Shown piece by piece: positions 6,522 through 25,783 of a stretch of 64,000 nucleotides of DNA. The translations under genes were made by a program, and so were the position numbers. The notes under the pieces were generated by a model. It worked only from the letters and a program-made list of their open reading frames with translations, searched no databases and was not told the origin of the DNA. Each line of letters opens with the position of its first letter. The stretch's first letter is position 1. Source of the DNA: Pseudanabaena mucicola FACHB-723 (lineage in GTDB: Bacteria; Cyanobacteriota; Cyanobacteriia; Pseudanabaenales; Pseudanabaenaceae); NCBI RefSeq assembly GCF_014696385.1, contig NZ_JACJQB010000002.1, positions 62,001 to 126,000 on the forward strand. The letters run 5' to 3'.

Positions 6522-6560
6522 GGCAAGGATGGACGGCGTGAAGCGCCGCCCATTCTTGCC
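6522..6560 (+). terminator. imperfect GC-core hairpin after the fasciclin gene
   Basis: GGCAAGGATGGACGGCG pairs with CGCCGCCCATTCTTGCC with one mismatch and one G-U pair. It shares the AAGGATGG-CGGCG core with the hairpin inside the MITE-like element at 24390-24472. Confidence 0.6.
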
Positions 6561-23737: not shown

Positions 23738-24292
23738 TTATTCGTCAATGGTGAAAGACTTAGCAACTCTAGAGAATAGATCTTTCACTTTTTCCCAGCG
23801 TTTTTCAGAGCTAGAAATACTTAAGGTGTAAAGATTGCCACGATTAGTAGACACAGTTACAAGGTCATGACGAGGTTCACCCTGCGCTCTCTGCACAGCA
23901 TATTCAAAAATGTAATAATTGCGATCGCCTGATTCTTTTTGAGTAGCACTCAGTAACTGGGCTTGGCGACCAGAGCCTTCAGGAGCAACTACACGCTGCT
24001 GTACACGCAAACCAATGGCATCGGCATCACCAATTTCTTCTAGGGTTTTGACAGTTAGCAGTTTTGTAATTGCCACCGACACATTTTCCGAAGGTTCAAT
24101 AATGTCATGAAACAGAATATCGATCGCAGAATTACCCTTTGTTTCTGTCCAACCATTCGGATACAAAAAACGATATCCATCTTTACTATCCGCAAATGGC
24201 ACTAAACCGCTTGTAGGCGTGCTGGCACAGCTAGTTAGGAGTAAGGAAAATACCACAAGCAATGTAGAGATGACACGTTTGAACATAATCAA
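23738..24292 (-). CDS. psbP: PsbP-like lipoprotein of photosystem II (CyanoP)
   Basis: The 184-residue protein has a lipobox (LLLTSCAS), so it is lipidated at the cysteine and probably lies on the thylakoid lumen side. The PsbP domain follows: FADSKDGYRFLYPNGWTE, VSVAITKLLTVKTLEEIGD, NYYIFEYAVQRA, RHDLVTVSTNRGNLYTLSI, and the end FSRVAKSFTIDE. CyanoP assists early photosystem II assembly and is a minor subunit in cyanobacteria. ATGs at 24292 and 24286 are both possible starts. The gene reads leftward 35 bases upstream of the phosphatase gene and may be co-transcribed with it. Confidence 0.9.
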   Translation of the reverse strand: MIMFKRVISTLLVVFSLLLTSCASTPTSGLVPFADSKDGYRFLYPNGWTETKGNSAIDILFHDIIEPSENVSVAITKLLTVKTLEEIGDADAIGLRVQQRVVAPEGSGRQAQLLSATQKESGDRNYYIFEYAVQRAQGEPRHDLVTVSTNRGNLYTLSISSSEKRWEKVKDLFSRVAKSFTIDE

Positions 24293-24669
24293 GAATATTA
24301 AATAGAGTGAACGATTAAATTATTAATAAAAAGGATTAGTAAGAGTATTAAATTATTCTGCAAAGCAGTTCAACAAAACTAGCAGAAACGGTAGTGCTAA
24401 AAAGGAAAGGATTGATTTTTGTAAGGATGGGCGGCGCTTCGCTCCGCCTATCCTTACCTATTTAGCGCTACCGCAGAAACTACCTTGTCATTTACTCTTA
24501 GCCGAAGAATTACTTTAAAAATCTTGGACAGTAAGATATGAGATTAATTTACAATACTTACCAATACTAGGATACAGCACCGCAGCAATCTCAGTTCGGT
24601 AAGACCATACCAAAATCTTAGACCTAAACCAGACTTAAGAGATTGCTGAGTAGCTTTGAAATCTGTAAA
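24293..24669. other. 377-bp spacer with a MITE-like element
   Basis: The stretch holds the element at 24390-24472 described separately. The remainder is AT-rich on the psbP side (promoter of psbP on the minus strand expected) and has no frame of note. Confidence 0.5.
24390..24472. mobile_element. MITE-like element, 83 bp, with inverted ends and an 8-bp direct repeat
   Basis: The ends are inverted repeats of 25 bp with 21 matches (left starts GGTAGTGCTAAA at 24390, right ends TTTAGCGCTACC at 24472). The 8-bp sequence GCAGAAAC occurs on both sides, at 24382-24389 and 24473-24480, like a target-site duplication. Inside is a GC hairpin, arms 24421-24434 and 24444-24457 (GTAAGGATGGGCGG with one G-U pair). 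It codes for no protein. The parent transposase is unknown. Confidence 0.75.
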
Positions 24670-25107
24670 TTAATTAAAATTGCCACCCCGTTGATAAAGT
24701 GCCGTCAACTCACGCAGAAAGCTTAAGCTCTGCTTGCCAGTCATCGAAATTGGTGAAAATGTCTCAGAACTAGAATATTTTAGAATAATATCACAAATTT
24801 CTGCTTGAGTGCCAAGCTGAACGACCTTCATTGACCATAGCCCAAAGTCACGATGTTCAATTTCGGAAAAATCAATCAGTTCTGCGTTGTTATGGCGTTT
24901 ATCCATCAAAATTCGATTATAGGTTTGGCTAATTAATCGCCGACTGCCCTCTAGCACCTGTAAAAACATAGAGTCTCCAAATGTAAGCATTCCTGTGATG
25001 CCTACATTTTTGTTGTTATGCTCAGACTTCTCCGCAATATCAACCAAATCAGGATACTCTAGCCCTGCGATCGCCTGACTGACATAGATTAAACGATAGA
25101 GAGTCAT
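24670..25107 (-). CDS. pixD: BLUF-domain blue-light receptor, PixD-like
   Basis: The 145-residue protein is a BLUF domain plus a C-terminal helical tail, as in PixD (Slr1694). Flavin-site residues are in the right register: Y8 (RLIYVSQ), N31/N32, Q50 (FLQVLEGS), W91 and M93 (GLWSMKVV). Overall it follows the PixD plan through LREL-type helices at the end. PixD binds FAD, forms a decamer with PixE in the dark and controls phototaxis in Synechocystis. The PixE-type gene is not next to it. Hairpins of one family lie on both sides of the gene. Confidence 0.93.
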   Translation of the reverse strand: MTLYRLIYVSQAIAGLEYPDLVDIAEKSEHNNKNVGITGMLTFGDSMFLQVLEGSRRLISQTYNRILMDKRHNNAELIDFSEIEHRDFGLWSMKVVQLGTQAEICDIILKYSSSETFSPISMTGKQSLSFLRELTALYQRGGNFN

Positions 25108-25178
25108 AAATTAATTCTGACAAGTTTTGACAAGTATTTATATCAAGATTAGCAAAAATTGGTAGGTCTAAATAATAT

Positions 25179-25219
25179 GGTAAGGAGTAGTTGGGGATTT
25201 TTGCCAACTACTCCTTACC
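25179..25219. repeat. 16-bp perfect hairpin related to the MITE-like element
   Basis: GGTAAGGAGTAGTTGG (25179-25194) pairs with CCAACTACTCCTTACC (25204-25219). Just before it, GGTAGGTCTAAATA at 25161-25174 resembles the end of the element at 24390-24472 (GGTAGCGCTAAATA). It may be a decayed relative, or a terminator for transcription from the left. Confidence 0.55.
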
Positions 25220-25249
25220 TATTGAATAATCTATATAAATCTGAATTTT

Positions 25250-25783
25250 ATGACCAGCAAACAATGGCGATCGCTTGCCAATATTTTTTTAATTTGCCTA
25301 ATTTGTCTTGGTATAACCTTCACAAACTCCTTTGTCACCAAAGCCTTAGCAGCAACCGAACCTTCATCAAATCAGATCATTGATCGTTTTGAAAACATCA
25401 AAAATAAAATGGCAAAACTAAGATTTTGCTATAACGAAAGCTGTTTCTATCGCAACGTTACCAGCAAAGTGATCCCGCCTAATGATAAGAATCCTCATTA
25501 CACCGCCGAAATCTCTGCGGCAGTTGAGCGCCCATCCTCAAGCCCAGATCTTGCAGATTATCATTTTATTTATGCTGATGATCACTGGCAATTAGTCAAA
25601 GGTGAAGAGTTTACCGATGTGGCAGATTATGTATTTATTGGCGATCGCTACGAAATCTACAGCGTTCACAATAGCCATACTTTGCGCGGTAATCTCGATA
25701 AGGCAAAAGAAGATGGCGGTATCAAGTCAGGATATTTGCCGCTTTACTATGAAGTTCTAGATCGTGGAATTGAAAAGCTATAA
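25250..25783 (+). CDS. secreted protein of unknown function
   Basis: I do not recognise this 177-residue protein. It has a signal peptide or membrane anchor (LANIFLICLICLGITFTNSF, then KALA), followed by a soluble domain with a pair of cysteines close together (FCYNESCFY) that could form a disulfide. Aromatic-rich strands such as DYHFIYADDHWQLVKGEE and FIGDRYEIYSVH follow. It reads like a small periplasmic or secreted domain with beta structure. It faces the ribosomal operon and has its own terminator, so it is monocistronic. Confidence 0.8.
   Translation: MTSKQWRSLANIFLICLICLGITFTNSFVTKALAATEPSSNQIIDRFENIKNKMAKLRFCYNESCFYRNVTSKVIPPNDKNPHYTAEISAAVERPSSSPDLADYHFIYADDHWQLVKGEEFTDVADYVFIGDRYEIYSVHNSHTLRGNLDKAKEDGGIKSGYLPLYYEVLDRGIEKL

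Follow-up and report, generated by a model that had tools for sequence, protein, structure and literature searches.

A very small palindromic repeat of Pseudanabaena, very probably an IS1-type MITE

The window analysed here is a 64,000-nucleotide stretch of the Pseudanabaena mucicola FACHB-723 genome. Between its BLUF-domain gene and a PsbP-family gene, both on the minus strand, direct reading of the sequence finds an 83-bp element without genes (Table 1). Its inverted ends, GGTAGTGCTAAAAAGGAAAGGATTG and (in reverse complement) GGTAGCGCTAAATAGGTAAGGATAG, agree at 21 of 25 positions. The octamer GCAGAAAC stands on both sides, with all eight positions identical. Inside is a hairpin with the arms GTAAGGATGGGCGG (24421-24434) and CCGCCTATCCTTAC (24444-24457), the right arm being overlapped by the right inverted end. 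A sequence-only reading had taken this unit for a MITE on the strength of these ends, this duplication and this hairpin, all of which read as it stated them. The boundaries are exact, in that matches in relatives recur with identical start and stop bases (query 691-773, which is window 24390-24472). On the long-arm side of the 83-bp form the hexamer AAGGAT occurs twice, spaced 16 bp.

Since the core is a GC-rich palindrome, a copy is nearly one hairpin. As single-stranded RNA the element has a folding energy of -43.7 kcal/mol (z -6.8 relative to 200 dinucleotide-shuffled sequences), and a 67-bp copy in the same genome reaches z -10.1. Rfam gave no match up to E 1 in window 24200-25400. The sequence-only reading had described the hairpin as built on the GC core of many terminators of the window. 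That the element is itself a standard intrinsic terminator is unsupported, a simple consensus scan (GC hairpin, then T-run) calling no terminator-like site there.

Table 1. Positions in the window of the parts of the element, its target duplication and the adjacent genes
Feature	Position	Strand	Remark
PsbP-family gene	23738..24292	-	PF01789 E 3.8e-50; start ~98 bp from element; context only
Left copy of target duplication GCAGAAAC	24382..24389		8/8 identical to 24473-24480
Whole 83-bp MITE (very probable reading)	24390..24472		Boundaries constant in relatives
Left (long-arm) end, 23 bp	24390..24412	+	Identical to left end of genus IS1-family elements
First AAGGAT of direct repeat	24407..24412	+	Deletion to second copy would give 67-bp form
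Internal GC-rich hairpin core	24421..24457		14-nt arms, 9-nt loop
Second AAGGAT of direct repeat	24423..24428	+	Sequence
Right (short-arm) inverted end	24450..24472	-	15-20/23 to ends of eight IS elements compared
Right copy of target duplication GCAGAAAC	24473..24480		Sequence
BLUF-domain gene	24670..25107	-	PF04940 E 6.8e-29; stop ~198 bp from element; context only

Copies of the element and related hairpins

The whole assembly (3.96 Mb, 94 contigs) was searched for further copies, as the sequence-only reading had proposed. Ten matches were found, and three places hold complete elements: the window copy, an 83-bp copy (C9) flanked by AATAGTCT (8/8), and a copy of the 67-bp form (C30) flanked by TAGCATTT/TAGCACTT (7/8). 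The remaining matches are the same places read on the opposite strand, or relatives of the hairpin core that lack both ends (C12:68517, which is window 6517, and others on C4, C54 and C28).

The element family is genus-wide in the Pseudanabaena sampled, with many copies in relatives. A 91-bp query containing the 67-bp copy matched 22 of 23 genomes of the genus (own included) and none of 15 genomes of other families. The 83-bp query, run against 291 genomes of the class, matched 40, namely 25 of the genus and 15 others. All 25 Pseudanabaena genomes listed match it (own included), one of them weakly (G016, E 4e-4). Among the 15 others, 11 match over the outer 22–27 bp only and four (G043, G045, G106, G195) over 39–51 bp; none of the matches listed from outside the genus spans the element. 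The 23-bp end pattern falls in Pseudanabaena at 46 of 80 loci among the matches listed, and had no exact match in viral contigs. A short end pattern alone is weak evidence, its reversed control matching as well (2 against 4 for the pattern in the own genome, 10 against 55 in G002).

The copies analysed below come from the stronger matches listed, and are a sample rather than every copy. From 112 loci we obtained 90 candidate pairs of ends and 29 loci without a pair. An end score of at least 19/24 and a length of 60–90 bp were passed by 73 of the 90 pairs, and removal of four second members of orthologous pairs left 69 non-redundant candidates, picked by their ends alone with flanks ignored; at least one of these (L067:1965-2049) is another repeat. 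After the 60–90 bp filter the 69 are 66–90 bp long, 83 bp being the commonest length (35 candidates), followed by 82 bp (10), with 67 bp in four. An end consensus was built from 54 copies of 80–84 bp.

Different lengths can occupy one and the same site. The 67-bp copy L083 of G002 is orthologous in position to the 83-bp copy L095 of G021, as is the 62-bp copy L105 of G021 to the 77-bp copy L091 of G002. A 16-bp deletion between the two AAGGAT repeats probably turned the 83-bp form into the 67-bp one; this is the simplest reading, and with it we infer the direction of change.

A different repeat of ~85 bp was also seen in G002 and G021 (L067:1965-2049, L092:241-326, L101:616-700); it has the sequence AGCARTCCTAAAT... 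and is built around a GCGCACCCCTTCGGGGTGCGC hairpin.

The sequence-only reading had further proposed that, through this element, the many hairpins of the window would be connected with a mobile element. Within one mismatch the core GGCGGCGCTTCG occurs at three window places (0.15 expected): the element itself, a hairpin relative at 6539 without paired ends, and 13566, which shares the GC palindrome only, in an unrelated stem. The hairpin at 25161-25219, said to be related, does exist and has perfect 16-bp arms, but the claimed kinship found no further backing, as a search of both strands of the genome matched only the hairpin itself. It begins GGTAGGTCTAAATA, which is suggestive, with no right end or duplication evident, and is possibly a decayed relative of the element. 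Because the core occurs at three window places only and the 25161-25219 hairpin is single-copy, the general hairpin link is unsupported.

Target duplications and empty sites

An exact 8-bp duplication flanks 26 of the 69 candidates, and 42 have one with at least seven of eight positions identical. When left flanks were paired with the right flanks of other copies (1000 shuffles, self-pairs excluded), the means were 0.015 exact and 0.20 at 7/8 or better, with maxima of 1 and 2; with self-pairs allowed the means were 0.39 and 0.81. Exact flank matches of 5–7 bp were found at none of the 69 candidates, and matches of 9 bp at three. At 24 of the 69 neither an 8- nor a 9-bp duplication is recognisable. 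A 64-copy subset obtained with another filter gave 23 exact duplications and 39 at 7/8 or better; these 39 have a raw A+T content of 74%.

Three one-sided copies have a duplication abutting the truncated right end (L069 8/8, L144 8/8, L082 7/8). Among 50 one-sided candidates six show a 7–8/8 duplication close to the truncated end, with offsets that vary from copy to copy, where shuffles give 0.88. Relaxed use of the right end is suggested, and only suggested, by these copies, because the six include one regular copy (L111) and the 50 include many regular 83-bp copies viewed from the short arm.

Empty sites, which the sequence-only reading had asked to be sought in relatives, were found. The site occupied in G002 (copy L074, at 1933510) reads CTAAAAAGATTG, the 83 bp, then AAAGATTGCAGAATC, with AAAGATTG on both sides; the sister genome G021 reads CTAAAAAGATTGCAGAATC, with a single AAAGATTG and no element. 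On one side the flanks of the two genomes agree at 96% over 499 bp; on the other they agree at 86% over the nearest 51 bp and at 96% past a ~190-bp stretch present in G021 only.

At the window locus all 21 relatives examined, those with the PsbP gene, are without the element, no core and no paired ends being found within 500 bp past the PsbP gene; in G017 and G022 there are scattered single end-like matches without an adjacent core. Several relatives have a single joined site (G022 CCTAGTAAGAACTACTTT, G002 GTTGGCAACTACTCTGT, G004 GGTGCTAACTACTTTGT; the window, when joined, would read ACTAGCAGAAACTACCTTGT). The flanks of this locus have diverged, and ~50 bp to the right of the window site are absent from the 12 relatives aligned. 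G017 is also without a third copy, L045, though the junction there is not clean. The two outcomes that would have told against a MITE, a solitary copy or relatives carrying the 83 bp unduplicated, were not encountered: further copies exist, and relatives are without the 83 bp at the window locus.

IS1-family elements with matching ends

A full-length insertion sequence (IS) with the same ends, which the sequence-only reading had asked to be sought, is present in the genus. IS1 transposase domains (PF03400) match in 19 of 22 genus genomes, and several of these matches lie between inverted ends of the MITE type: in elements of 728 and 820 bp in G020, 818 bp in G014, and 831 and 827 bp in P. biceps PCC 7429. 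The left ends of the 728-bp and 818-bp elements are identical to the window left end at 23 of 23 positions. Both ends of the 831- and 827-bp elements are GGTAGTCCTAAAAAGGAAAGGAT, which agrees with the MITE long-arm consensus (54 copies) at 23/23. In the comparison by locus, L213 and L225 share the window left end at 23/23 in their own left ends, and L221 and L229 at 22/23 in both ends; values for the short arm are given in Table 1. A search with the exact end pattern in G020 and G021 returned the 728-bp pair of G020 enclosing the PF03400 match; with the same pattern no IS-sized inverted pair was seen in G002.

The 728-bp element encodes a protein of 240 aa, and the P. biceps 831-bp element one of 168 aa, scoring 128 and 122 bits as IS1 family transposases, where the NCBIfam cut-off is 100. 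In the G014 818-bp element the reading frame is broken and only short frames are left; a fragment still matches the family, at 63 bits, below that cut-off. A 799-bp element of G014 has an open frame of 244 aa. By BLAST the two MITE copies tested match the IS elements at the ends only, and the palindromic core is unmatched.

Target duplications of the IS1 family range from about 8 to 10 bp. IS1-type elements with related ends and 8-bp duplications were found (L218/L195, L227 and L303 at 8/8, L316 at 7/8), of which L218/L195, L227 and the Stenomitos element L303 have at least one end differing from the MITE ends at several of 23 positions. Over all IS-sized pairs found, 4 of 16 have a duplication at 7/8 or better. 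Such a duplication is lacking from all seven IS-sized copies of the genus whose ends match closely (L197, L209, L210, L213, L215, L225, L229), and the direct link between IS and MITE is weakened for this reason; these may be old or recombined copies.

The own genome yielded three PF03400 matches and no IS bearing the exact long-arm end. The sole IS1 element found there with both ends, C59 (L223:411-1190, 780 bp), matches the MITE end consensus at 18–20 of 23 positions and has no duplication. Its two frames, 98 and 137 aa long, share a 4-nt overlap just past a run of eight A, an arrangement reminiscent of the IS1 frameshift. With its ends matching at 18–20/23, the window copy may have been moved by the enzyme of C59 itself or by one since lost. 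A further IS1-family element, ISAba3-like, has 24-bp ends beginning GGTGGTGTTTC and 8-bp duplications, according to PMC6382973.

Interpretation and wider occurrence

Its defined ends, 8-bp duplications, further copies, empty site and IS1-family partner make it very probable that the element is a MITE, a transposable element that is not autonomous, of the IS1 type; as far as the MITE goes, the sequence-only reading has held. An IS1-type DDE transposase acting in trans would bind the two inverted ends, cut before GGT and insert the element with an 8-bp stagger. As a guess, the core could be a host-type hairpin, once captured, thanks to which so short an element stays compact and does no harm between genes. 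It is possible, but rather unlikely, that the element serves as a vehicle for such a hairpin, IS1-type ends and palindromic core together seeding RNA stem-loops between genes throughout the genus, with a relaxed right end and some insertions by way of an internal cut site.

The families IS1595, ISL3, IS66 and IS256 also make 8-bp duplications, and one of these rather than IS1 might be the driver. Transposases of the IS1595 type were found in 15 of 22 genomes of the genus, and some IS1595-type ends, TGGCTCAATAGGTGA, share CT[AC]AATAGGT with the MITE short arm. Against this, the delimited IS1595-type elements (L153 and L168 left aside) begin (T)GGCTCAATAGG or CGCTCAT, not GGTAGT, and the MITE long arm agrees with IS1-family ends at 23/23, which makes such a driver very improbable. 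IS1595 itself, the one of the four families searched for, was rejected, the element ends being unlike the IS1595-type ends of the genus. A host hairpin, whether terminator or RNA-stability element, that happens to stand between chance repeats would account for the very stable fold and for the intergenic position between two genes read in the same direction. It would leave unexplained the duplications in 42 of 69 candidates, where 0.2 are expected, as well as the exact empty site, and it must do without a terminator-like call at the element; there is hardly any likelihood left to it. As a full account it is refuted, while a side role in transcription is possible. Palindromes of the REP type moved by a RAYT transposase are not expected to make target duplications. 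The element begins GGTAG and is palindromic, as might suit such an origin, but it has 8-bp target duplications, inverted ends on both sides and an IS1 partner, and we hold the REP/RAYT origin to be extremely unlikely. Its published counterpart is the set of GTAG-tagged palindromic REPs of other cyanobacteria (PMC3733652); the likeness lies in the GTAG at the end and the palindrome, the difference in the two inverted ends and target duplications of the Pseudanabaena element.

Among known systems, the IS1 family (PF03400, NF033558) is like the MITE in its 23-bp GGTAGT ends and its 8-bp, and few 9-bp, duplications; the MITE differs in having no transposase and in matching the IS copies compared over the outer ~23 bp only. 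Nezha (Zhou 2008), also reported to be a MITE of cyanobacteria, is like it in that respect. In mechanism the element is ordinary; what sets it apart is mainly its tiny size and its palindromic hairpin body. Like it, MITEAba12 is a non-coding element of ~100 bp with target duplications that has only terminal repeats in common with an IS, according to PMC6382973; MITEAba12 is given there as 113 bp, AT-rich, with 9-bp duplications and ISAba12 as partner, whereas the Pseudanabaena MITE has 83- and 67-bp forms, a GC-rich palindromic core, 8-bp duplications and an IS1-type partner. Among the matches listed from the open-access literature, there was no description of the element or of an IS1-type Pseudanabaena MITE.

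In other cyanobacteria, IS-sized elements that encode IS1-type proteins are bordered by the end pattern in Stenomitos (L303), Brasilonema (L318), FACHB-63 (L316) and Trichodesmium (L305), the frames of the last two being partial or split. Pseudanabaena sp. 'Roaring Creek' carries a 252-bp MITE (L283:2304-2555, L275:3177-3428), unrelated to the 83-bp MITE, whose 23-bp IS1-type ends are both perfect; past the ends its core shows no similarity to IS, and the duplications are 8/8 (CTCATGGT, L283) and 7/7 (L275). Given the end pattern on other IS-sized elements and this 252-bp MITE, a single type of transposase may be behind several small elements of independent origin. A 95-bp candidate MITE was also noted in Trichodesmium MAG_R02 (L258:2964-3058), with an 8/8 duplication, GAAATTTT, one good IS1-type end and one diverged.

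For the Pseudanabaena element, a very small MITE and its likely driver have been brought together inside one cyanobacterial genus, and the element accounts for repeated hairpins that would otherwise be open to annotation as terminators or RNAs.
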